Shown here: in pieces, positions 22,221-47,323 of the stretch | How the letters are laid out: every line of letters starts with the position of its first letter | Numbering within the stretch: position 1 is the first letter of the stretch | Assembly: GCA_029194665.1 (NCBI GenBank) | Contig: JARFXO010000007.1 | Coordinates: forward strand, 186,001-250,000 | Reading direction: 5' to 3' | From: Nitrospira sp. | GTDB lineage: Bacteria > Nitrospirota > Nitrospiria > Nitrospirales > Nitrospiraceae | Length of the DNA stretch: 64,000 nt | The notes under the pieces: generated by a model | Told to the model about the DNA's origin: nothing | The model's database searches: none | The model's input: only the letters and a program-made list of their open reading frames with translations | Made by a program: the position numbers and the translations under genes

Positions 22221-22871
22221 GCATGCTCCTGAGAGCCAGTACGGCTGTACCCGTCTCGTCGTGACAGGATGCGATCATGCCGTAGGCTCCGTGTAGTATA
22301 CCCAAAACTTCGGCAACAAGAGGCTTATGGCGGCGACCGCGAACACGCAAGCTGCTGCGACAGATCACACGACTCACAGGGTGACGCTCACGCGTTCATG
22401 CCGGATTCAGGTTCAATGAACTGATGGATATTGGCATTCCCTGCATGGTGCTCAAGAAGCGCTTCGCCGCCGACAGGCTTGGTTTCAGCTCTACGCCACA
22501 ACCAAGAATGCGGGCTTGGTTAGGACCAACCCAAACAGGAACGAGCCAAGCGCATCGGTTGTCGACTGATCAGTAGCGCTCAGAATTGAAAGGATGTCTG
22601 TGATCTTCAGGGTTTTTCAGGGCACCAGGAGAGGATCACATTGGGGTCAGAATGTTATTGTGCTCGGGGACATCCCGATATCATGAGTCGTTCTCTCAGA
22701 ATTTCACTCTGATCCGATTGGTAGGTACATAACTCCTATGAGGCTTGTTCACGACGTTTTGGGAGGGAAAAATTTCGCATTGTACGTTGTCCGTATTTGT
22801 GATTAGCTGGAGCGGGAAGTCCGAAATCAGCATATCTTTGGACAGTGAATGCACAGAAGAGGCCACAGGAC
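22221..22871. other. Intergenic region before hybrid kinase
   Basis: About 650 bp with no recognisable gene; the last 250 bp are AT-richer and should hold the promoter of the kinase gene. A short stretch around 22420-22490 could be a decayed coding remnant, but no family is recognisable. Confidence 0.3.
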
Positions 22872-25064
22872 ATGATTGAGCTGCTCTCCCGTGACCATAC
22901 GATCCTTGAACGGCCCTATATGGTTTATTGTCCTTTCGGGATAGATGAGAATGGCAAGAAGGTTCAGGACGTAAGTGGTATCAGCGTGCGCGCTATGGTG
23001 ACTTTTTTGGAGCAGTACGTTACACAACGTGATGGAGGCGCTGCCGGAACAGAAGCCGTGTCAAAAGCTTGTGAGTTGTTGAATAGTCGCGTTCTAGATG
23101 TCGCCTATCATGTGAACCCCAAATTCCTGCGAAATGTCTGGAATAGCTATAGTTACGAGTTCACCATGTATTTGCGAGAGTTCTGCGAACAGATCACCGG
23201 AGACCCTGAATTTCACTTTAAAATTGGGCAGGAAGGCTACCTTTTGTCGCCTCTGATGATTTTATTGCGCCCCTTAACGATTTCACAAATGTTTGCCATG
23301 CTTCCCCGTATTCTGCCGAAGTTCTCCACACAGTTCATTGTTGAAACGATTTCTTCCTCCGCAAGCGGCGGTATTGTGAAAATAAGGTTTACTGATCGCG
23401 TCCTCGAGGAGTTCGGCCCGTATCGCATGCGTTGTACCTGGATGGTCTGCCAGGGCTTAAAAGGTGCCATGACCAACACTCCTGTTAGAGTTCATGGAAT
23501 GCCTCCTCTCACTCTTTATGAAAAGAGTTGCATGGGGAACGGCGATGAGGCGTGTGAAATCGATGCTTCTTGGGCGCCGGAACCGACACGAAATTGGGTA
23601 TGGCCTATGGTATCTGCGTTGATAGGATTGTTCCTCTTCATCGGTATCCGACATCGATACCCAATGGTGACATCCACCGAAGCGATTCTGGTTTCCCTTC
23701 TACCATTCGGGATGTGGGCACTCGGTTTTGCAACGCAAAAGAGACTCTATTCAGTTATCCTAGAGCAGCATGAGACAGAGTACGGACGACAAGAAGAACT
23801 ACGTGAGGCCTACATGGAACAACAGCAAACCAGCATGGAATTGCGACGTAAGGTCATCGAGCTGACTGAGTTGCGTGACGAACTCCAGACTCTGAACCTT
23901 GGTCTAGAATCTCGAGTTCAATCCCGGACAGCAGAGCTACAAGCCGTGAACGCGAAGTTGATCGAGATGGACCAGGTTAAGTCACGATTTATCGCGCATG
24001 TGTCTCACGAACTACGTACCCCTCTGACGAGTATGACGGGCTTTACCGAGAACATGCTTGATGGCATCACCGGCTCTCTGAATGACAAACAAACACATTC
24101 TTTGAAACGGATCGCAGCTAATGCGGGCCATCTCGGTCGGATGATCGACAACCTTCTTGACCAAGCCAGCATCGAGGCCGGAAAGATTCGTCTGTCGCTC
24201 ATGGAAGTATCGTTGTCTGCCGTGATTGTTGAAGCCGTCGACCAGATGCGACCCTTGCTTGAGGAAAAACATCACATCATGAATGCAAGAATCGATGATG
24301 ATGTGACGGCCTGGGTCGACCCGGATAAGATCAGCCAAATTGTGACGAATCTGGTCTCCAACGCGATCAAATATACTCGAGAAGGTGGGTGCATCGGTAT
24401 CCGGCTTTTACGCACCAATGAATATGCGACGGTAGTCATCTCTGATACCGGTGAAGGAATTCCAGCTGAATTGGTCCCCTGCTTGTTTGACCCGTTCTTC
24501 CGTGTGAATCGTTCGGAGAAAAACATCGTAAAAGGTCTTGGGCTTGGCCTCTCGATAGTGAAACAGTTAGTTGAGTTGCACGGTGGACATATTGATGTGC
24601 AGAGTACGCCACATCAAGGAACAGAATTTCGATTCACCGTACCTTTGATTCAAGCCCCCGCTGTCATAGGCGTTCCGCAGAACGTTACGAGGCGCACAAT
24701 TCTGGTCGTGGACGACGATGCTGATATTCGACAGATGTTGAGCGACCGTTTGGAAGCGAGCGGATATGATGTCCTCTCCGCCCGTGATGGTGCAGAAGCT
24801 CTTGATGTGTTGGCCCTACGCTCGATTCACGGCATGATTCTCGATATAGGGATGCCTGGTCTTGATGGTCTAGACGTATTGGCACGAATCCGAGCGAACC
24901 ACGCGTACTTGCCTATTGTGATGATCACAGCCGCTGCATCGGAAGGGCGGGCTTCTGCAGCCATGCTTGCCGGTGCCCAGGCCTATCTCCTCAAGCCGCT
25001 TAATGGAAGCCAGTTTCAGCAGGCCGTTGACCAATGGTTCGGCGCTACCGTTGGTAATACGTAA
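22872..25064 (+). CDS. Hybrid sensor histidine kinase with C-terminal receiver
   Basis: 730 residues from ATG 22872 (AGAGG at 9 nt); a GTG at 22845 is an alternative. The N-terminal ~230 residues form a sensor region shared with 40224-42959, ending in a Cys-rich C-MGNGDEAC-E motif like V4R-type ligand-binding domains. Two hydrophobic helices, a coiled coil, HisKA (phospho-His in AHVSHELRTPL), an HATPase with DTGEGIP and GLGLGLSIVKQL, and a receiver domain (VVDDDADIR, acceptor Asp in ILDIGMPG, LKPLN) follow. Autophosphorylation passes to the internal Asp; the output partner is not in the neighbourhood. It lacks the GAF domain of its paralogue. Confidence 0.92.
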   Translation: MIELLSRDHTILERPYMVYCPFGIDENGKKVQDVSGISVRAMVTFLEQYVTQRDGGAAGTEAVSKACELLNSRVLDVAYHVNPKFLRNVWNSYSYEFTMYLREFCEQITGDPEFHFKIGQEGYLLSPLMILLRPLTISQMFAMLPRILPKFSTQFIVETISSSASGGIVKIRFTDRVLEEFGPYRMRCTWMVCQGLKGAMTNTPVRVHGMPPLTLYEKSCMGNGDEACEIDASWAPEPTRNWVWPMVSALIGLFLFIGIRHRYPMVTSTEAILVSLLPFGMWALGFATQKRLYSVILEQHETEYGRQEELREAYMEQQQTSMELRRKVIELTELRDELQTLNLGLESRVQSRTAELQAVNAKLIEMDQVKSRFIAHVSHELRTPLTSMTGFTENMLDGITGSLNDKQTHSLKRIAANAGHLGRMIDNLLDQASIEAGKIRLSLMEVSLSAVIVEAVDQMRPLLEEKHHIMNARIDDDVTAWVDPDKISQIVTNLVSNAIKYTREGGCIGIRLLRTNEYATVVISDTGEGIPAELVPCLFDPFFRVNRSEKNIVKGLGLGLSIVKQLVELHGGHIDVQSTPHQGTEFRFTVPLIQAPAVIGVPQNVTRRTILVVDDDADIRQMLSDRLEASGYDVLSARDGAEALDVLALRSIHGMILDIGMPGLDGLDVLARIRANHAYLPIVMITAAASEGRASAAMLAGAQAYLLKPLNGSQFQQAVDQWFGATVGNT

Positions 25065-33550: not shown

Positions 33551-33603
33551 TGTCAGCGGTCATGCAATAATCCCCAGATGTGGTCAATGAATTCTCCCCA
33601 CCC
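33551..33603. repeat. IS21 left terminal inverted repeat
   Basis: Begins TGTCA and ends TCCCCACCC. It matches the reverse complement of 35744-35796 at about 39 of 53 positions by eye, with shared blocks CCCCAG, TGGTCA and TCCCCACCC. Confidence 0.85.
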
Positions 33604-33693
33604 TCTCACCGAAGGAGGGATGTGATGGAACTTGACGATAGCAAGGAGACAACGATCATACCGTCCCAGGTAGACCACACTCGGGAGGTATGT

Positions 33694-34962
33694 ATGGTGG
33701 ATCAAGAGCGGTGGGCGGAGATTCGACGGTTGCGTCATGAAGAGCGGGGATCCATTTCAGGGATTGCGCGGCGGTTGGACCTGGATCGGAAGACCGTGCG
33801 GCGCAGTCTGCAGCAGACGACGTGGCAACCCTATCGCCGAGCGGCGATGACGGAGACGCTGCTGACCGCCCATGCCGACTTTGTGCGGACCCGTGCGTCG
33901 CAGGTTAATTATTCGGCGCGGATTCTCTATCAGGAACTGCGAGCGAGCCACGAGTACATCGGCAGTTATGAGACGGTGAAGCGAGGGGTGGCGCCGCTGC
34001 GTGAGGGTCAGCTGCAGGCGGAGCGGGCCCTCCTCCGCTTTGAGACACCGCCGGGCCAGCAGAGTCAGATTGATTGGGGCCAAGCCACCGTGCCCTTCCG
34101 CGCCGGCCCGACGGTGGTGCACGTGTTCGTGTTGACGTTGGGGTTCAGCCGACGTGGGTTCTATTACGCCTGTGCCGATGAGCGGCTGGCGCAGTTTCTC
34201 GAGGCCCATGAACGGGCTTTTGCGCATTTCGGTGGCCACACGCGAGAGCATCTGTATGACCGACCGCGAACCGTCTGTTATGCGGATGAGACGGGGCGGC
34301 GGCTCTGGAATCCCACCTTCAAAGCCTTCGCCGACTATTGGGGCTTTGAGCCGCGCGTGTGTCGGCCCTATCGGGCCCAGACCAAGGGTAAGGTCGAATC
34401 CGGCGTGAAATATCTGAAACGGAACTTTCTGCCGGGACGAACGTTTGTCGATCTGGTGGACTTTCAAACCCAACTTGACGAATGGACCGCGACAATTGCC
34501 GACCGCCGCATCCATGGCACGACGCATGAGGAGCCACTCGTCCGGTTTGCGCGAGAACGCAACCACCTGGTCCCGCTGGCGGACCAGCGCGCCTTCCAGC
34601 AGGAGGCGCGCGTCTCACGGATCGTGGCCGAGGACTATTTGGTCAGCCTGGCGACGAACCGCTACTCCGTGCCCTTCCGGCTCATTGGTCAGCGGGTTGA
34701 AGTGCAACGACGGGGGGACACGGTCCACATCTTTCACCGTGACCAAGAGATCGCGACGCACCCGGTGCTCCCGGGCCAGCACCAATTCCGAATCCAGCCC
34801 GAGCACGGCCCTGGAGCCAGTGCGCGTCTCGCCCGCCACCGTCGGTCCACGGTGAGCGATCGGTCCCCTCGCCCCGATGCCTTGCCGGAGGTCGAAGTGC
34901 GGGATCTGGCCTGGTACGAGGCGGTGTGTGAGCGCACGGCGTCGCAGGAGGGGCGGCCATGA
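33694..34962 (+). CDS. istA: IS21 transposase IstA
   Basis: 422 residues from ATG 33694 (GGGAGG upstream); an in-frame reading from 33580 also exists. N-terminal helix-turn-helix (ISGIARRLDLDRKTVRRSL), then an rve-type DDE integrase core: Asp127 in QSQIDWGQATVPF, Asp in EHLYDRPRTV and Glu in KGKVESGVKYLKRNF. A C-terminal SH3-like domain follows (YSVPFRLIGQRVEVQRRGD). It catalyses strand transfer of IS21. The stop overlaps the start of istB (ATGA). Confidence 0.95.
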   Translation: MVDQERWAEIRRLRHEERGSISGIARRLDLDRKTVRRSLQQTTWQPYRRAAMTETLLTAHADFVRTRASQVNYSARILYQELRASHEYIGSYETVKRGVAPLREGQLQAERALLRFETPPGQQSQIDWGQATVPFRAGPTVVHVFVLTLGFSRRGFYYACADERLAQFLEAHERAFAHFGGHTREHLYDRPRTVCYADETGRRLWNPTFKAFADYWGFEPRVCRPYRAQTKGKVESGVKYLKRNFLPGRTFVDLVDFQTQLDEWTATIADRRIHGTTHEEPLVRFARERNHLVPLADQRAFQQEARVSRIVAEDYLVSLATNRYSVPFRLIGQRVEVQRRGDTVHIFHRDQEIATHPVLPGQHQFRIQPEHGPGASARLARHRRSTVSDRSPRPDALPEVEVRDLAWYEAVCERTASQEGRP

Positions 34963-35741
34963 ACGCGGCGCAACTGGAACGGCTCCGTGACCAACTCACG
35001 CGCCTACGGCTCTTGAAGAGTCGGGAGCGGCTGGAGGCCCTCTTACAAGAAGCGGCCGTCAAGGAGCTGCCCTATGCCGACTTCCTCGACCAGGTGCTCG
35101 GCGAAGAAGTCGCGTCCAAGACCGCGAAGAACATTGCGATGCGGACGAGTTTGGCGCGATTTCCATTCGTCAAGAGTCTGGAGGTCTTCGACTTCAGCTA
35201 CCAGCCTTCGTTGGATAAGAAGCAGATTCAGCAGGTGGCGACCTGCCACTTCATCGAGCACGGCGAGAATGTCGTGATCTTGGGGCCGCCCGGTGTGGGC
35301 AAAAGCCACCTGGCCATCGGGCTAGGGCTGCAAGCCATTGCCCAGGGCTATCGGGTGTTGTTCACGACAGCCGCCGCCATGATCGCTACGCTGACTCGGG
35401 CGCTCACGGAGAATCGGCTGGAGGACAAGCTGAAGCTCTATACCATTCCCCGGTTGCTGATCATTGATGAGATCGGCTATCTGCCCATTGACCGCACCGG
35501 GGCCAACTTGTTCTTTCAGCTCATCTCACGCCGCTATGAGAAGGGGCCGATGATTTTGACCAGTAACCAGAGTTTCGGGGCTTGGGGCGAGGTGTTTGGC
35601 GACCGGGTGCTGGCGACTGCGATCCTGGATCGGGTGCTCCACCACGCGATCACCATCAACATCCGGGGCCATTCCTACCGGCTGAAGGAGAAACTCAAAG
35701 CCGGACTTGTGCGGGTCGAAGAAGCGTCAACGACAACCTAA
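34959..35741 (+). CDS. istB: IS21 helper ATPase IstB
   Basis: 260 residues. Walker A GPPGVGKSHLAIG, Walker B LLIIDEIGYL, and the AAA+ sensor region ILTSNQSFGAWGEVF identify the IstB ATPase that helps IstA find and strand-transfer into target DNA. Translation is coupled to istA by a four-base overlap. The C-terminal HAITINIRGHSYRLKEK is the normal family ending. Confidence 0.95.
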   Translation: MNAAQLERLRDQLTRLRLLKSRERLEALLQEAAVKELPYADFLDQVLGEEVASKTAKNIAMRTSLARFPFVKSLEVFDFSYQPSLDKKQIQQVATCHFIEHGENVVILGPPGVGKSHLAIGLGLQAIAQGYRVLFTTAAAMIATLTRALTENRLEDKLKLYTIPRLLIIDEIGYLPIDRTGANLFFQLISRRYEKGPMILTSNQSFGAWGEVFGDRVLATAILDRVLHHAITINIRGHSYRLKEKLKAGLVRVEEASTTT

Positions 35742-35743
35742 CG

Positions 35744-35796
35744 GGGTGGGGAATTTTCGATGACCATAACTGGGGCAATTTGGATGACCCTTGACA
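35744..35796. repeat. IS21 right terminal inverted repeat
   Basis: Ends TGACA on the plus strand, complementary to the left end; begins 2 nt after the istB stop. Confidence 0.85.
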
Positions 35797-35802
35797 AATG
35801 CT
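35797..35802. repeat. IS21 target-site duplication, right
   Basis: AATGCT immediately after the right terminal repeat; identical to 33545-33550. The following 35803-36175 shows no gene. Confidence 0.85.
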
Positions 35803-36175
35803 CACCTGGCGCAAGCCGATCCCTTATGCGAAGCAGCGAGCGAGGACCAGCCAAGCTCGCAAAGCCAGCCTGCTGGCCGAAGAGAGGGTTGGACGAATCC
35901 GGTTCGAGGGCCACTGCTAAAGGTAGTCAGAGTACTCCAGCCTCGCCGCCTCGATCGGTTCCACCTCAGAGGGCAGACCCACAACACCGGCACATCTCAC
36001 CGTTTCGCGGATGCGAGCCTCTAGCGTTTGTACGCACAGGCGAAACTTAATTTTGTTGAAATGTGCCAGTTTATTGTGGAGCTACGACAAGGTACAGACC
36101 CCCAATGAAAGGCTGTTCTCTTTCATGTCTGTGAGCAGACTGGCGCTCCAGCGAGGAATGCTCCCCTCGGCAGGC

Positions 36176-36277
36176 TCACTGCCTGGTGATACCAAGTAAG
36201 TTGGTGAGCAAAGCCGTGATTGCAACAACGACTCCGATGCCGATAAACCCGTAAATCATGATTTTTATATGGTCCAT
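36176..36277 (-). CDS. 33-residue membrane protein
   Basis: ATG at 36277 preceded by AAGGAGGTGCGT, one of the best ribosome sites in the window; TGA at 36176. The peptide begins MDHIKIMIYGFIGIG and continues VVVAITALLTNLLG, a single transmembrane helix with a short basic end (TRQ). It is divergent from the alpha-dioxygenase operon, about 400 bp away. No family recognised; the ribosome site and composition make it a likely real miniprotein. Confidence 0.6.
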   Translation of the reverse strand: MDHIKIMIYGFIGIGVVVAITALLTNLLGITRQ

Positions 36278-36684
36278 ACGCACCTCCTTGTTAGGGCCGC
36301 ATCATGGCATAAGCAGCCTTCATCATACAAGGCCTTACAGTTCAATATACCCCGAAAGTTGTTTCCACCTGGATGCCCATTCCACCATAGACATTCTAGG
36401 GTAAATACCCTCTTGATTATTGACCTGTATCCTGGGTGTATCCTTTTCGGATAGTCCTGTATCGGAACAGATACCGGTAAAAGTCCTAGTCGGAAATCAG
36501 ACTGATCCTCCTTCACATCTGTCTCGGCGATCACTACGAGTGCAACCACAAGTCATTCCTTGTGTTTGACCGTTTTCCCAGACATCGCTCCACAGAGCCT
36601 GTCCGATACGTTGCATGCGTCCATGTCTTGCATAAGCGAAAGGGTCTGAAGAAGGAACAACCTAGGAGCAGCCGGGAGGACACC
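36278..36684. other. AT-rich divergent regulatory region
   Basis: About 400 bp between the miniprotein and the alpha-dioxygenase-like gene, AT-richer than its surroundings and likely to hold both promoters. An inverted GTATC-N6-GATAC occurs near 36460. A GTG at 36562 would extend the oxygenase in frame but lacks a ribosome site. Confidence 0.4.
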
Positions 36685-38526
36685 ATGAGACGCTCGGGTA
36701 GGGCATTGCGCGTGATGGCGTGGTGTTATAGGGCATTGAACCGTATGGTCCCGTGGCACCGATTGCCGAAACTGCTGGGGCTTCTCAACCTGATCGCCCT
36801 TCAGCACGACCTTCGGCGATGGAATTTATACGACACGACCCCGTTTGCAGAAAACACGGGCAAGCGATGTCCATTTCATGCGACCGATCTTTCGGCACGA
36901 CGGGCGGAGGGATCGCATAATGACCTGCAATACCCTTCGATGGGACAGGCAGGAACGCCGTTCGGCCGCAACTGTCCGTTGAATGCGATCCCAGTCTCGC
37001 AAGACCCCGGTGGCGAGAACCCCAGTCCCAAGACCGTCAGCCGTGTGCTCTTGACACGCACACAGTTCATTCCGGCCACCTCGGTGAATCTGCTCCTTGC
37101 CGCCTGGATTCAGTTTCAGGTGCATGACTGGTTCAATCATAAACGAAGCGATTACCCGGATACGCCGATTCGCTTAGGACCAGGCGACGAATGGCATGAG
37201 GACCCGATGATGGTCCGCAAAACCAACGAAGCGCCACGCTCGCGGGGCTGTCCCGCCTCCATGCCGGTCTTCTTAAACACCGGAACGCACTGGTGGGACG
37301 GATCCCAACTGTACGGAAGCGATGTCACCCGCCAACAGCTGGTCCGCGGTGAGGAGCAGTATGGCAAGCTCATGCTCATCGACGGACGCCTCCCATCGAT
37401 GGCAACCATCGACGCGGACCAGCCAGGTATTGATCTCACGGGCTTCAACGACAATTATTGGATTGGCCTCAGCATGTTTCACACGCTTTTTGCGCTGGAG
37501 CACAACGCGATCTGCGAAGCCCTGCACGTCAGCTATCCGTTATGGACCGATGAACAACTCTTCCAAAAAGCCCGCCTGATCAACAGCGCCCTCATGGCCA
37601 AAATCCACACCGTGGAATGGACGCCCGCATTGCTGCAGCACCCAACGGCCGATCGCGCGATGCGGATCAATTGGTGGGGCGCGTTCGGAGAACAGATTCG
37701 CAAGCGATTCGGGCGATTGAGCGACAACGACGTGTTGGGAGGACTTCCAGGGTCTCCCACGGATCATCATGGCGTTCCCTATTCCCTGACCGAGGAGTTT
37801 GTCGCCGTCTATCGGCTGCATCCATTGATTCCCGACGACTATCGGTTCAACTCGCTCACAGACCCGACAGCTTGTCACTACAAGAGCTTCAGAGAAGTCG
37901 AAGGCAACAACACGCGCCCCCTGATGGATCAGCTGGGCGTCGAGAACCTGTGGTTCTCGTTCGGTCTGGCACATCCCGGGAAACTCACGCTGGGCAACTT
38001 TCCTCGCTTCCTTCAAGATTTCAAGCGGATCAAGCTGCTTCAGGACGGCAAGGAGGAGATCCTGGATGTGGCCGCGATCGACGTCTTCCGGGATCGTGAA
38101 CGGGCGGTGCCTCGGTACAACAACTTCAGACGCATGTTGCGCATGCGCCCTGTCCGGAGCTTCGAAGAGTTAAACCGTGAATGGGCGAAAACACTCCGGG
38201 ATGTGTATGACAATGATGTTGAGCGCATCGACACCCTGGTCGGGTTGCTCGCTGAAGAGCCGCCTGAGGGCTTTGCGATCAGCGACACTGCATTTCGTAT
38301 CTTTACGCTCATGGCGCCGCGGAGGCTGAAGAGCGATCGGTTCTTCACGGCTGATTTTCGCCCGGAGGTGTATACCCCCATGGGAATCGATTGGGTGCAG
38401 ATGAACGACCTGACGAGCGTCCTGCTTCGCCACTATCCGACGCTCGCTCCGGCCCTACAGGGATTGGGCAATGCGTTTTTCCCTTGGCATAACATTCACG
38501 AACCGGCTGGACACAAACCGACCTGA
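36685..38526 (+). CDS. Alpha-dioxygenase/cyclooxygenase-like haem peroxidase
   Basis: 613 residues from ATG 36685 (GGGAGG at 5 nt), close to the length of plant alpha-dioxygenases (about 640). Animal-type haem peroxidase fold with distal His147 in QFQVHDWFNH, HWWDGSQLYG, a NDNYWIGLSMFHTLFALEHN helix, KIHTVEWTPALL, and EEFVAVYRLHPL carrying Tyr376 and His379. The Y-x-x-H spacing is the catalytic tyrosine and proximal haem ligand of cyclooxygenase/alpha-DOX. GVPYSLTEEF is strongly alpha-DOX-like. Expected reaction: O2 addition to the alpha-carbon of fatty acids to 2-hydroperoxides. First gene of an operon with a lipoxygenase-like gene and a sensor kinase. Confidence 0.88.
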   Translation: MRRSGRALRVMAWCYRALNRMVPWHRLPKLLGLLNLIALQHDLRRWNLYDTTPFAENTGKRCPFHATDLSARRAEGSHNDLQYPSMGQAGTPFGRNCPLNAIPVSQDPGGENPSPKTVSRVLLTRTQFIPATSVNLLLAAWIQFQVHDWFNHKRSDYPDTPIRLGPGDEWHEDPMMVRKTNEAPRSRGCPASMPVFLNTGTHWWDGSQLYGSDVTRQQLVRGEEQYGKLMLIDGRLPSMATIDADQPGIDLTGFNDNYWIGLSMFHTLFALEHNAICEALHVSYPLWTDEQLFQKARLINSALMAKIHTVEWTPALLQHPTADRAMRINWWGAFGEQIRKRFGRLSDNDVLGGLPGSPTDHHGVPYSLTEEFVAVYRLHPLIPDDYRFNSLTDPTACHYKSFREVEGNNTRPLMDQLGVENLWFSFGLAHPGKLTLGNFPRFLQDFKRIKLLQDGKEEILDVAAIDVFRDRERAVPRYNNFRRMLRMRPVRSFEELNREWAKTLRDVYDNDVERIDTLVGLLAEEPPEGFAISDTAFRIFTLMAPRRLKSDRFFTADFRPEVYTPMGIDWVQMNDLTSVLLRHYPTLAPALQGLGNAFFPWHNIHEPAGHKPT

Positions 38527-38593
38527 TTGAGGAGCCTCGACCGCTGGAAGCGGCGCAAACCCATTGGCTCCTTCTCGTGAAGGAGGCTGGCTT

Positions 38594-40231
38594 ATGTCGT
38601 TGATGACCACATTACAATGGACCATTCGGAAGGGATTCTGGAACTTCGTGGCGAAGAGAAAATATAGACGCAATATCCCGATGGTGGTCGATCATCCTCA
38701 TCGAACGCCTGCTCGTCTTCAATTGATCCCTTTGGTACAGGTGTATCCGAGCATCCCGATCAGCGATATTTGGATCGCCGATCATCCACTACAAGACGAG
38801 GGCCGCGCCAAGCGGGGAATGCTACGGCGATTGTTGACCAGGCTGTATCCGAAATTCTTTCCAGAAGAACTGGTCCTGCGCGTTTTAGCATGGCTCTATA
38901 CCACCACATGTGGTCCTATGCAGCCGGGCCGCCCCGAGATTCCGGCTGATCCCTATGTCGCCCTGGATCAAGCCTATACCAAAGGACACCGCCGGACGGT
39001 GATACACACGTCGGCAGCGTTGACCCTTGATCCGAAGAGAACGCTGAAGCCGCCCACCTTGCCGCCCGAGCTGGAACAGTTCCCGGATCTCGGTATGCTG
39101 GCCTTGCGGGGGCCTTATGCCGGTTACTTGAAGAAGGTGAAAGGTTCTCGTGCACAGTACGAGTGGGATTTGCGTGAGCTCTCATCGTACGAGTCATATC
39201 CAGACCTCTACGAACCCTGGGCTCACGTGCTGTTCCAATTCCATGAGCAAGACGCCTCGCTCAAACCCTGTCGGATTGAATGTCAACTTGGAACGATTGT
39301 CCCGGACGATCCTGAGTGGCCGCTTGCATCGCGCATTGCTGTCTGTGCCGCCACGACCCATACCGCCCTCGTACGGCACTGGACCTGGACCCATTTGGTC
39401 GGCGGGGAGCTCTTCGCGTTTGCGACCCGCACAAAACTGAGCGACTCTCATCCGCTTTACCGACTCCTCTGGCCGCACCTGGTCGGGACACAGGCCAGCA
39501 ACCGGCTGGCGACGTTAGGTCAACTGGTGCCGGGCGGCGATTTTGAAGCAGTCTACAGCTTGACCTACAAAGGCCTCTGTCATTTGATCAGCAAGTCGAC
39601 CGCAACCTTCCGGTTGGGTAGCTTCGATCCCAGGGAAGACCGGCATCATCGCGACATGGGGGGAAGAGTTCCTACCCCGACACTCGACAATTGCAAGCGC
39701 CTGTTTCGAATCATGCAGGCCCATGCGTACCGGTACTTCCGGCTCTACTACACCGACGAGGCGATACGGTACGATGAACAGATACAAGACTGGGTCGGCG
39801 AGTTGGACCGATTGCTTCCAAACGGTCTCGGGCTCCCCCCGGTCAAGCTGGGATGTGCCTCGCTCGCCAACGTGGTCGCCAAACTGATGTATATGGAATG
39901 CGTGCACCATGAGCAGGTCGGCACGCACTGTTGGAACTATCAATTATGGGCACACACACATCCGGTGCGTGTCTATCGCGACAATCGCCGTGTACCTGAA
40001 GACGTCTACCAACGATTGGTCAACACCAACTATATTCTCAATATTGTGCGCACCCCCTTGTTGAGCGATTTGACGAATCTGGCGCTGGAGGGCGAGCGAA
40101 TGGAAGAAGCGGAGCGAGTCTTTCGAGTCTTTACGGATCGGCTCCGAGCCGTAGAGCATGCGATGGAGCAGGAGCCGTGGGCTTCATGGAAGATCTACCC
40201 TGTCCAACTTGAGGTCAGCATTAATGCCTGA
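38594..40231 (+). CDS. Lipoxygenase-like non-haem iron protein
   Basis: 545 residues from ATG 38594 (AAGGAGG at 8 nt). The lipoxygenase core is visible: HWTWTH (His262, His267; H-x4-H iron ligands), then ELFAFATRTKLSDSHPLYRLL and PH at 294-295, GGDFEAVYSL, and a third ligand candidate His438/439 in MECVHHEQVG. The residue four after the third His, usually Asn, is Gly. The protein ends VSINA rather than the Ile carboxylate ligand of classical enzymes. No N-terminal PLAT domain. It probably oxygenates polyunsaturated or other fatty acids, but the altered ligands leave activity open. It lies between the alpha-DOX gene and the kinase. Confidence 0.75.
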   Translation: MSLMTTLQWTIRKGFWNFVAKRKYRRNIPMVVDHPHRTPARLQLIPLVQVYPSIPISDIWIADHPLQDEGRAKRGMLRRLLTRLYPKFFPEELVLRVLAWLYTTTCGPMQPGRPEIPADPYVALDQAYTKGHRRTVIHTSAALTLDPKRTLKPPTLPPELEQFPDLGMLALRGPYAGYLKKVKGSRAQYEWDLRELSSYESYPDLYEPWAHVLFQFHEQDASLKPCRIECQLGTIVPDDPEWPLASRIAVCAATTHTALVRHWTWTHLVGGELFAFATRTKLSDSHPLYRLLWPHLVGTQASNRLATLGQLVPGGDFEAVYSLTYKGLCHLISKSTATFRLGSFDPREDRHHRDMGGRVPTPTLDNCKRLFRIMQAHAYRYFRLYYTDEAIRYDEQIQDWVGELDRLLPNGLGLPPVKLGCASLANVVAKLMYMECVHHEQVGTHCWNYQLWAHTHPVRVYRDNRRVPEDVYQRLVNTNYILNIVRTPLLSDLTNLALEGERMEEAERVFRVFTDRLRAVEHAMEQEPWASWKIYPVQLEVSINA

Positions 40232-42959
40232 TGTATCGGCAAGCCCGCTTGCTGCCGACGCCCTTGTGTCGGACAGCGAGGAGCAGAAGGAGTTGTTGAC
40301 TCTGGAGCACACGATCCTCGATCGTCCGCTGATGAAATTTCGGCCGTTTGGGAAGGATGAGCAGGGGCAGAAAATTTCCGACGTGAGCGGAACCCTCGTC
40401 GTGTCTGCGATCCAACATCTCGAACATTGTGTGGAAAAATCCAGCGGAGCGGCGGCTGTCCAGACTGTCGAACAGTTATGCCGGCTGCTCAATGGACGTA
40501 TTCCGGATCCTTCCTACCATGTGACGCCCGCATTTTTGCGAAAAGAATGGAACAGCTATTCCTATGAATTCTTGAGCTATCTGCGGGAATTCTGCAAGCA
40601 GCTCTCGGGTGATCCGCAGTTTCATTACAATACCGGCCTGACCACCGTCATTTCCCCGGTGTTTCGAGTTCTGGGGCGCCCGTTTACCCTTGCCCAGTTC
40701 TCCAAGCTTGCGTTGTACTGGACCCAACGGTACACGCAGGGGACCGTCGAGTGCGAGATCGCCGACGTCACAAATTGCTCGATGATCTATCGGCTTCGTT
40801 TTACCGAGCATACGCTGAAGCAGTTTGGACCGTATCTCAAAGCCTGTGCCCATCAGGTCTGTGCTTCGACCAAGGGACGAATAGTGGCGGCTCCGTCGCT
40901 CATTCACGGAGGACCGCCCGCAAGAGTGACGGATCGGACTTGTATCGTCGACGGGGCACCCTGGTGTGAATGGGAGGTACGCTGGCAGCACGAGCCGCGA
41001 CAAACATTTTGGTCTGCTTGGACTTTCGTGCCGGGAGTCGCGGCGTGGCTGTACCTCCATTATTTCTATCCCATGGTGTCCGGAATCGAGGCGTTGTTGT
41101 TGGCGACGGTGCCCACCTTGGCGGCGGGAATGTTGTCCGAATCCCGTCAACGGGCCGCGAATCGCAAACGCGAGTCGTTAATCAACGAGCAAACGCAGTT
41201 TGTCGAAGAACGGTACACAGAACTCAAGGACGCGTACCTCGATCAGGAACAGACCCGTGTCGAACTCCGTCGCAAAGTGAGTCAGCTTACCGCGCTCCAC
41301 CGCGCAGGCCTCTCGTTCGGATCGACGCTCGACCGCGAACCACTAGTGCAGACCGTCCTGGAGACCCTCATCCAGGATCTCCACTACGATCGAGCCATGA
41401 TCAGCTTTTACGACCCGGTACGTCGGGTTCTTCACAGCGGCAGGGTCGTCGGAGTCTCCGATGACATCGCAGAGTTCGTCCGTCGGCGGGAGCTGCCGGT
41501 GTCCGATCCCGACGAATTTCCGGCGTCGGCGCTGAGCGCCGGCAAGCCGGTGCTGATTCGCGACATCAAGACCGTTTGGGCGCGTCTGCATCCGATGAAT
41601 CAGCAATTGGCTGCATGGACCGGCACGAATTCGGTGATCTGGGTGCCGCTGAAAGCGAAGGACCGTCTGCTCGGCACGCTCACGGTTGACCGTACTGCGC
41701 CGAACAGCTTGACGGACGATGACCTGGAATTAATGGAGACGGTCTCCAGCCAGGTGGCCATCGCTCTGGACAACGCCTCGGCGTACGCACAGATTGAGGA
41801 GCTGAATACCGGGTTGGAAGCCAAAGTCCAGGAACGGACGGCAGAGTTGGAACGTGCGGACCAGATCAGGTCGAGCTTCTTGTCGCATGTCTCGCATGAG
41901 TTACGAACGCCGCTCACGTCGGTGAAGGGCTACGTGGAGAACCTCCTCGATGGGCTGACCGGTCCGTTGAACAGCAAACAGCAACGGTACCTGGGGCGCA
42001 TCTCCGACAATCTCGAGCGACTGATCAGGATGATCACCGACCTCCTTGACCGAACCCGCATTGAAACGGGCCAGCTTGCCCTCTGCCCGGCGGAGGTGGA
42101 TTTGGAACGTTGCGTGGCGGAGGTCATCGAACAGCTTCGACCCTTGGCGAAGGAAAAACAGCAGCTGCTGACGAGTCATTATCCACCTTCAGTACTCATT
42201 GTCTGGGTCGACCGGGATCGGTTGATCCAAATCCTCACCAACTTGGTGCACAACGCCATCAAATTCACGCCGACGGAGGGACGTATCGACGTGTCGGTGT
42301 TCGCCTCCGATAGGGCCTTCGCCACGATTCGCGTCCGCGATACGGGGCCTGGGATTCCCGAGGAGGCATTGGCAAAGATCTTCGATCCGTTCTACCGGAC
42401 AGTCCAAAAACGACCGCAACGCACCGAAGGGCAAGGGCTCGGTTTAGGCCTCTCTATCGTGAAGACGCTCGTCGAACTCCATAGCGGCCGGATCACTGTA
42501 TGCAGCGAACCGGGGCAGGGTTCCGAATTTTCCGTGACGCTCCCCCTCATCCCAGCCGCCCCGTTGGCAGCAGCGCATGACCAACCGGTCTCGAAGCGAT
42601 TGCTGATCGTGGATGACGACCCGGACATTCGACAACTCTTGGCCGATCGCTTGGCCGCCGAGGGCTACGAAACCGAACCGGCGATCGACGGGGTGCAGGC
42701 CCTCCAGGCCATGCAGGAACGCCGGTTTGCCGGAGTCCTATTGGACATCGGCCTTCCACAGTTGGATGGACTCGAGGTCCTCCGTCAGGTGCGACGGTGG
42801 AACCAACAAACTCCCATCGTCGTGATCACGGCGGCGCAATCGAAGGACCTCGCCGTGCGTGCCATCAGCCTAGGCGCTCAGGCCTATGTGTTGAAGCCGT
42901 TCAACCTATCGGAACTCCATCATGCCGTCCGGAGTTGGTTCGCAAACCCTTCTCTATAG
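40224..42959 (+). CDS. Hybrid sensor kinase with GAF and receiver domains
   Basis: 911 residues from ATG 40224 (GAGG at 9 nt), overlapping the lipoxygenase-like gene by 8 bp. The N-terminal ~240 residues match the sensor region of 22872-25064 (LEHTILDRPLMKFRPFG, EWNSYSYEFLSYLREFCKQ, C-IVDGAPWC-E). Two membrane helices follow, then a coiled coil, a GAF domain (about 370-530), HisKA with SHVSHELRTPL, HATPase with DTGPGIPEEAL and GLGLGLSIVKTL, and a receiver with Asp in LLDIGLPQLDG and LKPFN. Likely senses a lipid-related or redox signal and reports on or controls the oxygenase operon. Confidence 0.92.
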   Translation: MPDVSASPLAADALVSDSEEQKELLTLEHTILDRPLMKFRPFGKDEQGQKISDVSGTLVVSAIQHLEHCVEKSSGAAAVQTVEQLCRLLNGRIPDPSYHVTPAFLRKEWNSYSYEFLSYLREFCKQLSGDPQFHYNTGLTTVISPVFRVLGRPFTLAQFSKLALYWTQRYTQGTVECEIADVTNCSMIYRLRFTEHTLKQFGPYLKACAHQVCASTKGRIVAAPSLIHGGPPARVTDRTCIVDGAPWCEWEVRWQHEPRQTFWSAWTFVPGVAAWLYLHYFYPMVSGIEALLLATVPTLAAGMLSESRQRAANRKRESLINEQTQFVEERYTELKDAYLDQEQTRVELRRKVSQLTALHRAGLSFGSTLDREPLVQTVLETLIQDLHYDRAMISFYDPVRRVLHSGRVVGVSDDIAEFVRRRELPVSDPDEFPASALSAGKPVLIRDIKTVWARLHPMNQQLAAWTGTNSVIWVPLKAKDRLLGTLTVDRTAPNSLTDDDLELMETVSSQVAIALDNASAYAQIEELNTGLEAKVQERTAELERADQIRSSFLSHVSHELRTPLTSVKGYVENLLDGLTGPLNSKQQRYLGRISDNLERLIRMITDLLDRTRIETGQLALCPAEVDLERCVAEVIEQLRPLAKEKQQLLTSHYPPSVLIVWVDRDRLIQILTNLVHNAIKFTPTEGRIDVSVFASDRAFATIRVRDTGPGIPEEALAKIFDPFYRTVQKRPQRTEGQGLGLGLSIVKTLVELHSGRITVCSEPGQGSEFSVTLPLIPAAPLAAAHDQPVSKRLLIVDDDPDIRQLLADRLAAEGYETEPAIDGVQALQAMQERRFAGVLLDIGLPQLDGLEVLRQVRRWNQQTPIVVITAAQSKDLAVRAISLGAQAYVLKPFNLSELHHAVRSWFANPSL

Positions 42960-43015
42960 AATTTGTCCTCGTCGTTCAGAAGCCAATCTTGGATACCGAC
43001 CGAAGCCAAACCTTA

Positions 43016-43987
43016 TTAAGACAGCAGTGAACGCTGTTGTGGCGGAAGGGCCGTATCGAGCAGCAAGCGGCGATGCCGCAACGCTGCCTGGGCCTCAGCC
43101 ATGGTGCATTGAACGAAAGAGATGGCGTGACCAGGCGCCAGTTGAGCGGCCAGAGGGAGGTCGGCCGAGATGACGACGGCGATTTTGGGGTATCCGCCGG
43201 TCGGCTGTCGGTCGGCCATCAGGAGAATGGGCTGCCCGTCCGGTGGGATCTGCAAGGCTCCCGTCACGGTACAGTCGGTAATGAAATGCGCTGATCGCGT
43301 GAAGGTCATCCTCGGTCCGATCAAACGATATCCCATGCGGTCGGATTGTGGAGCGACTTGGTAGGAGGAGTCAGTCAGGGTCGCGAACGACCCGAGCGAG
43401 AAGAACTCTCGTTGCGGACCAGGGACGATACGCAGGGTCGCCGATCGGCTGTAACGAGGAAGCAACTGCGAAGGCAACCGTTTCCCGATTAGACTGCCCA
43501 CGGATCGGCTGCGTCGTCCAGTGCGGAGCATGTCTCCCTGTTTCAACGGTCTTCCCTGAAGTCCACCTGTTTCGCTCGAACAGTGGGTAGAACGGCTTCC
43601 GAGAACCAGTGGGACATCGATGCCGCCGGCGATGGCGAGGTACGTACGAGACCCGGCGCGCGGCCTGCCGAAGCTCAATCGGCTGCCACGCCGGATTTCC
43701 ATGCATTCCCAAAGCGCTGTGCCCATGCCGTCGATAGACGGCGAGAGATCCGCGCCGGTGATGGCGATGATCGCGTCTCGCTCAAACTGGAGTTCAGGTC
43801 CTTTCAGGGTGAGTTCGAGGACTGCGGCGACGTCGGAATTTCCCACGAGGCGATTGGCAACTGTTGCGGCGAAGCAATCCATCGCTCCCGCAACGGTGAC
43901 GCCGTATTGTTGGTAGCCGTACCGTCCCAGGTCTTGGACCGTGGTGAACCAGCCGCTCGTCACGACTCGGATGCCGACAGGTTCCAT
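43016..43987 (-). CDS. pxpC: 5-oxoprolinase subunit C-like (KipA/PxpC) protein
   Basis: 323 residues from ATG 43987. The carboxyltransferase subunit C fold is marked by TTVQDLGRYGYQQYGVTVAGAMD, GPELQFERDAIIAITGADL, YLAIAGGIDVPLVLGSRST and a closing PDGQPILLMADRQPTGGYPKIAVV. In the usual PxpABC enzyme it works with PxpA and PxpB to hydrolyse 5-oxoproline with ATP. Neither partner is in the window, so it is an orphan or scattered locus. It is convergent with the GAF kinase gene. Confidence 0.88.
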   Translation of the reverse strand: MEPVGIRVVTSGWFTTVQDLGRYGYQQYGVTVAGAMDCFAATVANRLVGNSDVAAVLELTLKGPELQFERDAIIAITGADLSPSIDGMGTALWECMEIRRGSRLSFGRPRAGSRTYLAIAGGIDVPLVLGSRSTHCSSETGGLQGRPLKQGDMLRTGRRSRSVGSLIGKRLPSQLLPRYSRSATLRIVPGPQREFFSLGSFATLTDSSYQVAPQSDRMGYRLIGPRMTFTRSAHFITDCTVTGALQIPPDGQPILLMADRQPTGGYPKIAVVISADLPLAAQLAPGHAISFVQCTMAEAQAALRHRRLLLDTALPPQQRSLLS

Positions 43988-44103: not shown

Positions 44104-45126
44104 TCAGCGGTCGTACAAGGACGGTGCAGTCAGGGTGGCTGCCAAAGTCGACTCCTTCCCTACGGCATCCAGATGCTTATCGATCCATTCCGACGCGATC
44201 CGCCGTCCGATGGCATGGAGGTGCCGCAGGAAGCGCAATTCATTGTTGAGTTTGCTCGATGCGCCGAACTCGCGCAGCTCTTCGGCATGAATCTCGTGCA
44301 GTCGGGGATTCCGGCCCTTCAAGGGATGACCATCCTGATCCCTGCCTGGCAACGCGAGGACATATTTCACGGCTTCCAGTTCCAAAAATAATGCGGTGCT
44401 GAAGCTGATCTCAGTGGTCCTGTCGATGATCTCGCTGGCCTTCCAAGGCAGCTCGGGTCGAATCAACGGATTAATGCCGATGATGATCAGATCATCGACC
44501 GGAGTCTCGTGAAAGAGCGGAGCGATCGCCGGGTTCCCGGAATAGCCGCCGTCCCAGTAGGACTGACCATCGATTTCAACCGCCTGGAAAAGGTGCGGCA
44601 GGCATGCGGAGGCCAAGACTGCATCCACGGACAGTTCATCATTACTGAAGACTTTTCGCCTTCCTGTTCGGACATTGGTCGCGCACAGGAACACGCGAGC
44701 GGTATCGCTGCGCCGGAGCCGCTCAAAATCGATCGTCTCGGCGAGCAAGTCACGAACCGGATGATAGTTGAACGGGTTGAGTTTGTACGGTGACCACATC
44801 CGAGTCATCAAATCAAAAAACAGATAGACCGGTGAGGAATCGAAACTGAACCGGTCCCCTATGCCGAACGGATTGCATAATGCGGCAAGCCCGGGCATGC
44901 GGCCGACCGCCTCCCACATCGCAGTCAACGCGGCTTTGCCGCCTTTCTTGCCGTCCCGAGACAGACCGTCGGCAAGGGCGACGGTGTTGATTGCGCCGGC
45001 GCTGGTCCCGCTGATTCCCGTAATCTCAAGATCTTCTTCTTCAAGCAAGCGATCGAGCACGCCCCACGTAAAGGCGCCATGTGAGCCACCCCCTTGAAGC
45101 GCCAAATTGACTTTGCGTGTCGGCAT
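44104..45126 (-). CDS. Patatin-like phospholipase (RssA/YlbK type)
   Basis: 340 residues from ATG 45126 (GGAGG at 6 nt). N-terminal NLALQGGGSHGAFTWGVLD oxyanion loop, GISGTSAGAIN with nucleophile Ser42, and YWDGGYSG with Asp192: the Ser-Asp dyad of patatins. Predicted cytoplasmic or membrane-associated lipid acyl hydrolase. This type is often near PHA genes, where related patatins can act on granule lipids; here it follows the PHA locus on the same strand after a 297-bp gap. Confidence 0.9.
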   Translation of the reverse strand: MPTRKVNLALQGGGSHGAFTWGVLDRLLEEEDLEITGISGTSAGAINTVALADGLSRDGKKGGKAALTAMWEAVGRMPGLAALCNPFGIGDRFSFDSSPVYLFFDLMTRMWSPYKLNPFNYHPVRDLLAETIDFERLRRSDTARVFLCATNVRTGRRKVFSNDELSVDAVLASACLPHLFQAVEIDGQSYWDGGYSGNPAIAPLFHETPVDDLIIIGINPLIRPELPWKASEIIDRTTEISFSTALFLELEAVKYVLALPGRDQDGHPLKGRNPRLHEIHAEELREFGASSKLNNELRFLRHLHAIGRRIASEWIDKHLDAVGKESTLAATLTAPSLYDR

Positions 45127-45423
45127 CGATGACCTCCTGCTGGCTATTGAAGCTTTCTTGTGATGGGATCGATTGGCAGAAACCATAACGGGCACGTACC
45201 CGCGGCGTTGCTTGCGCATTCTTAGCACAGCGAGACCCAGTATTACAAACGTACGCAGCGGCCGGCCTGAACCCATTGCTTGAGCGGGACTCGCGCTGGT
45301 AGCAGTCTCATGCCGGATCTACTTGCATGACGATCTGTTGGAGCGAGTCCCGGCCGCCTGGGTAGGACCTGGAATGTCTCCAGATACCGGGTCGGGTGGC
45401 AGCCGCACAGAGACTGGACAGGC
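45127..45423. other. Intergenic region with long inverted repeat
   Basis: About 300 bp without a gene. CGGGACTCGC (45285-45294) and GCGAGTCCCG (45343-45352) form a 10-bp inverted repeat with a 48-nt loop; possible terminator of the PHA/lipase transcript. Confidence 0.35.
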
Positions 45424-46425
45424 CTAAGGGCCGGACACAAATCGAAGGAAGAGGGCAACGGCCTCTGGATCAGTCCTCAGTTCGTCATGCGTCAACCCAG
45501 GCAGCCGTTTGTTTTCAGCCCCATCTAGAGCTGGGCTGTCCGCATCCCCGACGGGCCATCCGAAGAGCCATGAGCGATAAAAGATGTCCGCTCCGGTTCC
45601 ATCATAGATCGTCATGGAACGTGCGGGGCTCGGAGTTTCACCCCTGCCGCGACCATCGTTCAGCCTCGCCAGCCAGTCGGAACCAGGAACCAGCTCGTCA
45701 CAGCCGATGAAATTATTCCAGCCAATGAACCACATCAACCAGAGCCGACGGCAGACGGTGGTGCCATGATTGGGACCGGCAATCCCCACGAACTTGCGCA
45801 CCGCCTGCGACAGCTCGGGGTTCGCTCTCATTGCGCTTCGTACGAGCGTCACGCCCAGGGAATGCGCCACAAGGTCGACTTTCGTTGCGCCCGTGTAGGC
45901 CAATACGGCGTTCACAAAGACCGTCAGGTCGGAGACATTGCTTCCGTTGTCCGTTCGACACTGCAGCGGGGGAGGATTGAGCTTGGTGGACTTCCCGTTA
46001 TATGAGATCGCCCAGAGCTCCTGCATGGTGTAGCCGGATTCCAAGAAGCGTTGCTTGACGCTGCGTCCTTCCTCATCCCAGTCCCAGGCATCTCTGGTGT
46101 TGCCATGGACGAAAATCACAGGAGGTCGACGCAGGGGATGGCCTTTCCGAATGCCGCCCCATCCTCCGAGGCGTATTCCCCACTCCTGGTCCTTGATGAG
46201 GGAAAAGTCGGAAGCGAACTCATTGTCGGCGGGCAGCGGCTTGCAGTGCGCCACCTTGTGCGAAGCCTCAACCGTCGCCGCCGACAGTGCGAACACCACG
46301 ACATACAGAGCAATCATGCAGCGCTTGACCAGAGGGGTTTGTCGACGTCGAGGCATGCCGATGTCGTCCATTGAGGCCGTAGAGACAGCCTCGGCCACCG
46401 GGACGGGGTTATCTCGCTGCGTCAT
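45424..46425 (-). CDS. Exported triacylglycerol-lipase-like alpha/beta hydrolase
   Basis: About 333 residues from ATG 46425 (start uncertain; ATG at 46371 also possible). A hydrophobic segment (about 37-53, ending TVEA) is a signal peptide or anchor. Core: PPVIFVHGNTRDAWDW oxyanion region, VDLVAHSLGVTLVRSA with nucleophile Ser189, AGPNHGT, and His in LTHDEL. The pattern fits class 2 lipases and distantly PhaZ7-type PHB depolymerases; given the PHA locus upstream, a role on polyester or lipid is plausible. The start overlaps the end of the lipoprotein gene by 17 bp. Confidence 0.78.
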   Translation of the reverse strand: MTQRDNPVPVAEAVSTASMDDIGMPRRRQTPLVKRCMIALYVVVFALSAATVEASHKVAHCKPLPADNEFASDFSLIKDQEWGIRLGGWGGIRKGHPLRRPPVIFVHGNTRDAWDWDEEGRSVKQRFLESGYTMQELWAISYNGKSTKLNPPPLQCRTDNGSNVSDLTVFVNAVLAYTGATKVDLVAHSLGVTLVRSAMRANPELSQAVRKFVGIAGPNHGTTVCRRLWLMWFIGWNNFIGCDELVPGSDWLARLNDGRGRGETPSPARSMTIYDGTGADIFYRSWLFGWPVGDADSPALDGAENKRLPGLTHDELRTDPEAVALFLRFVSGP

Positions 46426-47323
46426 CACGCGGAGGCACGGTATCGGACTGGGTCGGCTTCCATTTGCCCGAGAAAGGATTCAGGGACTTAATCGCCTTCC
46501 CAATGTGGGTATAGGTGGAGTCGATTCTCCCCTCCTCAAAGTCCTGAAGCATGGCCGACCACAGGATTTCCGCGGTGCCATCAAGCGGGATGCGCGCCTG
46601 TCCCATGACGTCGCTGGCGATCGTGACTTCTCCGGAAGAAGCCCAGACCACCCTACCGGTCCGTACATCCCAAAGCTCCAGGCCGAGTCGCAGGTTCGTG
46701 ATGCGGGTTTGGACCAGACGCCAGCCAAACAGACTGAATCGATTCTCGGTCTCCTGGCTGAATGTCGAATAGACGGGCTGAAAGACATAGTTCACGCGAC
46801 ATGCGGTCCCGATGCGCTGCAGTCGCGCCCGATCCAACACGCCGCTTCGCTCGTACGCGACGACGAGTTCTTCATAATCGGCCGCCAGGCCCGCCGCGTT
46901 GAGCTGGCTCAACACATGATGACTGGGCATCACCGTGACCGGTTGGGGGACGGATTCGGAGAGCGCTCGATCGAGTGCGGAGCTGAAGCCTTGTCGCATG
47001 CCCCTCTCGGGAAACGATGTCAATGTCTCGAGGACGGCGATCGGTTCTTGGTGGAGAACCAGGGGACTCATCGGGGAGGACAACGGCAAGGAGCGCGTCT
47101 GCGCTTGCCATTCGTAGCCGTGCCCGCATCCGCCCAACAAGGCCATTGAGCCGATCCACACAATCCCCGCGGCCAGAGCCGCCCATACGGAATATGCTTT
47201 CACCGCCGGCGCGTCTTTTCCCCGAGGTGCCGCACTTGCCGAGAAGCGTCGTGCCGGCGCGCCACGCGGCAGGGACGAGCGGGCGCCGTCGCTGCCGGTC
47301 AAGCGGCTCGTTCTTTTAGCCAT
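46409..47323 (-). CDS. Predicted lipoprotein, unknown
   Basis: 304 residues if started at ATG 47323, which overlaps phaC by 25 bp. A hydrophobic stretch followed by LLGGC (about residue 66) looks like a lipoprotein signal, so the true start may lie further in. The mature region has PVTVMPSHHVLSQLNAAGL, ACRVNYVFQPVYSTF and RLGLELWDVRTGRVVWASSGE, resembling periplasmic proteins that measure protein amounts (CsgG/LpoB-like organisation), but the family is not certain. Envelope-located; it links phaC with the lipase gene. Confidence 0.65.
   Translation of the reverse strand: MAKRTSRLTGSDGARSSLPRGAPARRFSASAAPRGKDAPAVKAYSVWAALAAGIVWIGSMALLGGCGHGYEWQAQTRSLPLSSPMSPLVLHQEPIAVLETLTSFPERGMRQGFSSALDRALSESVPQPVTVMPSHHVLSQLNAAGLAADYEELVVAYERSGVLDRARLQRIGTACRVNYVFQPVYSTFSQETENRFSLFGWRLVQTRITNLRLGLELWDVRTGRVVWASSGEVTIASDVMGQARIPLDGTAEILWSAMLQDFEEGRIDSTYTHIGKAIKSLNPFSGKWKPTQSDTVPPRDDAAR

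Follow-up and report, generated by a model that had tools for sequence, protein, structure and literature searches.

Within a 64,000-nucleotide stretch of Nitrospira sp. DNA, hereafter the window (the whole of the sequence analyzed), we find an α-dioxygenase gene (DOX), a lipoxygenase gene (LOX) and a hybrid sensor kinase gene in a row, and we propose that this locus is a fatty-acid oxygenation operon, probably, though far from certainly, one in which DOX and LOX act on a shared fatty acid and the kinase binds a fatty acid or a product. The part of this proposal that concerns the two enzymes, namely that they make oxygenated fatty acids in a coupled manner, has good support from the operon structure, the recurrence of the pair across phyla and natural DOX-LOX fusions.

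Three genes are predicted to form one operon

A sequence-only reading of the same DNA had located the three genes and an 8-bp overlap of the kinase gene with the LOX stop; the positions as well as the overlap (40224-40231) proved correct. The features discussed below are as follows.

36547..36564, + strand: palindrome CACAAG-N6-CTTGTG upstream of DOX, a tentative candidate regulator site
36685..38526, + strand: α-dioxygenase gene (DOX), ATG to stop, 613 aa; animal heme peroxidase superfamily
38594..40231, + strand: lipoxygenase gene (LOX) of a non-canonical subfamily, ATG to stop, 545 aa
39377..39394, + strand: LOX iron-site motif HWTWTH (His262, His267), which aligns with HxxxxH of known LOXs
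39908..39922, + strand: third LOX iron ligand His439 and Gly443, placed by conservation
40226..40228, + strand: C-terminal Ala545 of LOX, where known LOXs have Ile
40224..42959, + strand: hybrid sensor histidine kinase gene, ATG to stop, 911 aa
40275..41015, + strand: N-terminal sensor domain of the kinase, with Cys208, Cys213, Asp237, Cys240 and Cys248 (kinase numbering)

The spacer between DOX and LOX measures 67 bp, the ATG of the kinase lies inside the end of LOX, and each of the three genes is preceded by a plausible ribosome-binding site (GGGAGG for DOX and GAAGGAGG for LOX). The order DOX/LOX/kinase, for which the sequence-only reading had proposed a search elsewhere, is kept in many genomes and recurs in other Nitrospirales. 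This arrangement points to a single operon. A scan of positions 36000 to 43100 for sigma-70 promoters returned no more matches than chance. The palindrome upstream of DOX is the single match of its kind within the window (chance expectation of 0.10 with one mismatch allowed), and it is also present in the two closest genomes, G107 and Nitrospira sp. LK70, the latter with a LOX 94% identical to ours.

Several neighboring features deserve mention in their own right. An IS21-type element (istA/istB) occupies window positions 33551-35803, upstream of DOX; it is absent there from LK70 and G107, in which the flanks are joined, and the DOX upstream region is intact despite the element further upstream. 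Another kinase, with a sensor domain of the same family, is encoded at window positions 22845-25064, 11.6 kb upstream of DOX, and lies on a long branch of the sensor tree. Just past the operon, on the reverse strand, lie genes for a patatin-like phospholipase (44104-45276) and a class-2 lipase (45424-46428). The window holds no obvious DNA-binding partner for the kinase receiver domain. Two acyl desaturase-like genes occur in the source genome, as do further animal-heme-peroxidase genes (C2:449734-451848, C3:644415-645002 and C6:360889-361473; L002-L006), one of which sits in a 3005-codon open frame.

DOX is predicted to be an α-dioxygenase with its catalytic residues retained

DOX matches the Pfam family An_peroxidase (PF03098; E = 1.5e-99), and its nearest solved structures are plant α-dioxygenases, among which 4hhr is matched by residues 14-602 of 613 (phmmer, E = 1.4e-114) with 39% identity over 571 aligned residues. 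By these matches DOX is a full-length α-dioxygenase homolog within the heme peroxidase superfamily. Alignment to 4hhr places His147, Tyr376 and His379, which the sequence-only reading had already singled out, at the distal His, the radical Tyr and the proximal His, respectively, and His308, Thr313 and Arg547 at the carboxylate-binding residues; these catalytic and carboxylate-binding roles are those of the Arabidopsis enzyme. Tyr376, His379, Thr313 and Arg547 are invariant across the 19 alignment rows, and His308 is kept in all 18 rows that have a residue there (one gap). His147 is found in 13 of the 19 rows, with Gly or Arg in five and one gap; the distal His is only partly conserved also in a published α-dioxygenase survey (PMC8720084). 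From this pattern we predict that DOX is an α-dioxygenase that binds heme and carries out 2-hydroperoxidation of fatty acids.

LOX is modeled as a complete catalytic domain with an altered iron site

LOX is recognizable by sequence only in its iron-site half, to which its match to PF00305 (E = 1.5e-10) is confined, and no N-terminal PLAT domain was recognized in its 545 residues. An AF2 model built from a 23-row alignment spanning phyla (pLDDT, 87.6) superposes on every class of LOX, with 387-467 residues aligned; the Z score is 33.8 against 5-LOX (7ttj; rmsd of 2.5 over 387 residues), 33.5 against rabbit 15-LOX and 33.2 against the P. aeruginosa LOX. The model indicates a complete LOX catalytic domain and contains the iron site that had been read from HWTWTH and His439 in the sequence. 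A pseudogene or a non-LOX protein is ruled out by the LOX fold and the conserved His residues. Broken relatives occur in G043, where LOX is split, and in G045, where DOX is split.

All three putative iron-binding histidines (His262, His267 and His439) are invariant in relatives: HWTWTH is unchanged in 31 alignment rows, and His439 in all 30 rows with residues at this position. The same 30 rows all have Gly at position 443, where a fourth ligand (Asn, His or Ser) would be expected. In known LOXs the carboxylate of a C-terminal Ile binds the iron; here the C terminus reads Asn-Ala in 27 of 29 rows and Asn-Gly in the other two. In the model, Ala545 is matched to the residue that ends 5-LOX (673), 15-LOX (663), PA-LOX (685) and soybean LOX-1 (839), and in this superposition the C-terminal residue occupies the ligand position. 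The absence of the C-terminal Ile and of the Asn ligand, first remarked in the window protein, is thus a property of the whole subfamily, a distinct group of LOXs seen in at least five phyla. Glycine at the fourth-ligand position together with the C-terminal Ala could change or even abolish normal LOX chemistry. Furthermore, position 306, presumably the Coffa stereo-determinant, is occupied by Ala, Val, Gly or Thr depending on the member, so that stereochemistry may differ between them.

DOX and LOX recur as neighbors across phyla and as fusions in Nitrospira

When the LOX alignment was used to scan 84,980 genomes, 27 loci emerged; the search was seeded by conserved peptides and will miss distant LOXs. 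Comparison of the open reading frames in these loci revealed DOX next to LOX in Myxococcota (Pyxidicoccus and Sorangium), Actinomycetota (Pseudonocardia, Mycolicibacterium and others), Pseudomonadota (Rubrivivax and a Burkholderiales MAG), Acidobacteriota (an Acidobacteria MAG) and Nitrospirota. Some loci stop at contig borders, where adjacency cannot be judged; wherever the contigs permit the check, DOX lies beside the subfamily LOX, save in one Nitrospira lineage (g17; G138 and G158-G160), which has LOX and kinase without an adjacent DOX. The order of the two genes varies, and in some loci they lie on opposite strands, which argues for repeated rearrangement with proximity retained. Moreover, DOX and LOX are fused into a single protein of 1592 aa in the complete genome of the isolate N. 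moscoviensis (NZ_CP011801) and of 1741 aa in a second Nitrospira (G048), both with an N-terminal hydrophobic segment and, separating the two enzymes, a multi-TM linker of about 9-12 hydrophobic segments. Because adjacency is widespread and fusions occur, the DOX-LOX pair is very likely a functional unit. That the genes are chance neighbors with unrelated functions is hardly credible: we found no point in favor of it, and it is contradicted by the recurrence of the pair in several phyla with differing gene orders, by the two fusions and by the 8-bp overlap of LOX and kinase.

While the constant pairing or fusion with DOX fits two oxygenases acting together, it would also suit a second step, in which the LOX-fold protein is not a dioxygenase and instead acts on what DOX makes, perhaps by isomerizing or cleaving the hydroperoxide. 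The fixation of Gly443 and of the Ala/Gly C terminus across the whole subfamily points in the same direction. Nevertheless, with the LOX fold intact, the three His invariant and the C terminus superposing on the ligand position, we regard such a role as unlikely and prefer to see LOX as an oxygenase.

A second, longer DOX-like heme peroxidase (about 970-1060 aa) is common in one Nitrospira genus (L045, L049 and similar g17 loci; L074 2995-6177; L138 1-1686), and in G385 it lies only a few genes away from LOX-kinase. The G048 fusion is itself preceded by a patatin-like gene. RoxA-like diheme cytochrome c genes (PF21419; L074 9522-11057, L093 5207-6799 and L102 1067-2686), of the family of the rubber oxygenase RoxA, add a third oxygenase type to the cluster, beside DOX-LOX in Nitrospira G048 and Rubrivivax and beside LOX in Rhodoferax, where LOX alone is visible before the contig ends. 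It is tempting to read these genes as a sign that, rather than a fatty acid, the enzymes oxygenate some other unsaturated aliphatic chain (e.g., an isoprenoid, carotenoid or hydrocarbon), the more so as the FadL/TodX proteins considered below carry aromatic and other hydrocarbons too. However, DOX retains His308 and Arg547, which hold the fatty-acid carboxylate, and two diheme peroxidases of P. aeruginosa, PA2077/PA2078, together convert oleate to oxylipins (PMC5155153), so that such cytochromes also fit fatty acids. A substrate of this other kind therefore seems improbable to us, and we continue to favor a fatty acid.

The kinase sensor domain is modeled with an H-NOX/V4R fold

Pfam recognizes GAF, HisKA, HATPase_c and REC domains in the kinase, behind a sensor for which a sequence-profile search against solved structures gave nothing usable. 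An AF2 model of this sensor domain (pLDDT, 89.8) matches the H-NOX domain of sGC with a Z score of 13.8 (rmsd of 3.0 over 170 residues), and the same structure search returns MopR, PoxR and DmpR, which sense phenols, as well as Bet3, a TRAPP subunit that binds palmitate. The modeled fold is that of H-NOX/V4R domains. Thus, the label "V4R-like" given by the sequence-only reading stands at the level of the fold, but not at that of Pfam, where V4R (PF02830) has no match in the window kinase and matches only a few relatives below the cut-off (best E = 0.0013, 19.2 bits versus a cut-off of 31).

Cys208, Cys213, Cys240 and an Asp or Glu at position 237 are kept in the aligned kinases, and so is Cys248 with one exception. 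The resulting pattern, Cys, Asp/Glu-x2-Cys-x7-Cys, is present in all 14 sensor rows; it may correspond to the V4R zinc site of MopR, with which it would agree in spacing from position 237 onward. A gas or heme sensor of the H-NOX type would fit the fold but was rejected, as the heme signature is missing: the sensor alignment has no invariant His that could be the H-NOX proximal His, and the heme motif Y.S.R occurs in one of 14 rows and is absent from the window kinase. Some relatives carry more than one sensor, with three tandem domains in the G166 kinase (L072 1599-4394) and several copies in the kinase reading frame of L133 (G171).

The kinase is linked to LOX in Nitrospirales and more widely to fadL

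All 22 checkable Nitrospirales loci, that is, those with sequence downstream of LOX (L105, L106, L104 and L138 included), have the sensor kinase next after LOX, across three families; in one of them (G048) the RoxA-like gene lies between the two. No kinase of this type was found beside DOX-LOX in other phyla, so that among the genomes searched the link is limited to Nitrospirales. The kinase family itself is far more common than LOX: it occurs in 101 of 120 well-sequenced Nitrospiraceae genomes, mostly without LOX, which is present in 20 of 175 genomes. What accompanies the kinase instead is fadL/todX, a gene for a fatty-acid porin, located beside it on the same strand in at least 67 of 122 places and, in 62 of these, 2.0-2.5 kb downstream of the sensor, i.e., directly after the kinase. 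Two of the three kinase paralogs in the source genome are beside fadL; one overlaps it by 8 bp, and the other shares its neighborhood with fadL and with genes for a DyP-type peroxidase and a sigma-54 response regulator. Likewise, the g17 locus with LOX, kinase and fadL corresponds to kinase-fadL alone in G046, G049 and G051. Because the family is common without LOX and usually found beside fadL, the kinase would at root be a sensor linked to hydrophobe or fatty-acid uptake. Judged by this gene context, a sensor of hydrophobes was recruited to the enzymes, with no clear dedication to oxylipins.

On the sensor tree, the LOX-linked kinases require three changes, compared with a mean of 16.7 after shuffling. 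They fall into a main clade, which also encloses a group lacking LOX, and a second clade (G048 and G166). These two genomes also stand apart from the main Nitrospirales group on the LOX tree, where the LOX of G166 groups with one from Acidobacteria and that of G048 with mycobacterial and burkholderial sequences. The simplest reading of the trees is that LOX and the kinase family joined at least twice, while losses and long branches permit other histories.

These observations bear on an alternative in which the locus serves the catabolism or detoxification of polyunsaturated fatty acids of external origin (plants, algae or protists), with the kinase sensing the incoming fatty acid or hydrocarbon and no oxylipin signaling. 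The pairing of the kinase family with fadL, without LOX, in most Nitrospiraceae is what it would lead one to expect, as are the paralog beside fadL, the DyP-type peroxidase and the sigma-54 regulator, and the lipase genes near the operon. On the other hand, the operon shows no gene for an aldehyde dehydrogenase, a CoA ligase or beta-oxidation, each LOX of Nitrospirales that could be checked has the kinase after it, and the LOX-linked kinases cluster on the tree. We consider catabolism possible, though on the unlikely side.

A proposed mechanism and its significance

According to the fatty-acid oxygenation reading that we prefer, DOX and LOX would share one pool of free long-chain unsaturated fatty acids, either in the cytoplasm or at the inner membrane, a membrane association being suggested by the fusion linker; these fatty acids would probably be taken up from outside via FadL or released by lipases. 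DOX would add a C2 hydroperoxide, leading to a 2-hydroxy acid or a Cn-1 aldehyde, while LOX would insert oxygen at an internal position of the chain, so that together they would yield a doubly oxygenated or chain-shortened oxylipin. The kinase, derived from FadL-linked hydrophobe sensors, might then bind either the fatty acid or an oxygenated product of it in the V4R-type domain and, by signaling through its histidine kinase and receiver domains, tune uptake, detoxification or lifestyle; we are less sure of these last steps. Counting against the proposal as a whole are the commonness of the kinase family without LOX, the syntenic kinase-fadL loci that lack LOX, and g17 with no adjacent DOX. 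In addition, Nitrospira membranes are not known to contain 1,4-diene fatty acids, which puts a 1,4-diene substrate of LOX in doubt.

The sequence-only reading had suggested both the production of oxidized fatty acids and a response to them. Production of oxylipins by DOX and LOX is likely in view of the operon, its recurrence and the fusions, whereas the response fares less well, given a kinase family found mostly without LOX and beside fadL. Oxylipin sensing by the kinase is plausible at a tentative level, and sensing of a fatty acid or another hydrophobe is somewhat more probable. A self-contained oxylipin signaling pathway, in which DOX and LOX, joined in some species as a single bifunctional membrane protein, yield a dual-oxygenated fatty acid with the help of a non-canonical three-His LOX site, and a dedicated V4R-type kinase receptor was recruited from fatty-acid-uptake sensors, possibly more than once, is a doubtful extension of our proposal.

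The purpose of bacterial LOXs is an open question in the field, and, within the literature searched, proven prokaryotic oxylipin signaling rests on P. aeruginosa. With a DOX-LOX pair present in several phyla and fused in a cultivated nitrifier, together with a kinase of the fadL-associated type, this question becomes testable in defined proteins. The altered iron site of this LOX subfamily and the natural bifunctional DOX-LOX enzymes are also of interest for oxygenase mechanism and biocatalysis, and the locus hints that nitrite oxidizers respond to fatty acids around them.

Comparison with known systems

Earlier work describes bacterial LOXs and α-dioxygenases, fusions of catalase with LOX, and an oxylipin quorum system in P. 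aeruginosa; in open-access papers, the scope of our search, we found no description of a DOX-LOX pair or operon, of a DOX-LOX fusion or of a LOX in Nitrospira. The window DOX resembles plant and cyanobacterial α-dioxygenases (those of Arabidopsis and rice, 4hhr/4kvj, and CalDOX and LepDOX, PMC8720084) in its full-length homology and shares their catalytic Tyr, proximal His, substrate-binding His/Thr/Arg and distal His; unlike them, it is paired with or, in its relatives, fused to LOX. The survey of these enzymes covers five bacterial phyla, Nitrospirota not among them, and does not mention lipoxygenase (PMC8720084). With mini-LOXs that lack PLAT (Cyanothece CspLOX2, 5med; Enhygromyxa, 8x8f) and the secreted LoxA of P. 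aeruginosa (4g33), the window LOX has in common the fold, the three iron His and a C terminus at the iron, at about 15-20% identity in structure alignments, but it differs by Gly in place of Asn/His/Ser, by Ala/Gly in place of the C-terminal Ile and by its usual DOX partner.

The sensor shares its fold with the V4R phenol sensors MopR, PoxR and DmpR and with H-NOX domains. However, the former are sigma-54 activators, in contrast to the GAF hybrid kinase found here, in whose family Pfam V4R stays below its cut-off, and the latter carry a heme signature that is missing in the window sensor. Oxygenase genes beside a regulator are likewise found in the oxylipin-dependent quorum sensing system of P. 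aeruginosa (PA2077/PA2078 diol synthase and OdsR), which uses diheme peroxidase-type oxygenases and a LysR regulator with a demonstrated oxylipin response (PMC6377657), whereas the Nitrospira locus has an α-dioxygenase, a LOX and a hybrid kinase as the putative sensor. Finally, cyanobacterial catalase-LOX fusions and heme dioxygenases associated with catalase-related proteins also join oxylipin enzymes by fusion or tandem genes, the LOX or heme dioxygenase making a hydroperoxide that the catalase-like enzyme converts (PMC11719350); DOX-LOX, by contrast, joins two primary dioxygenases of different classes.
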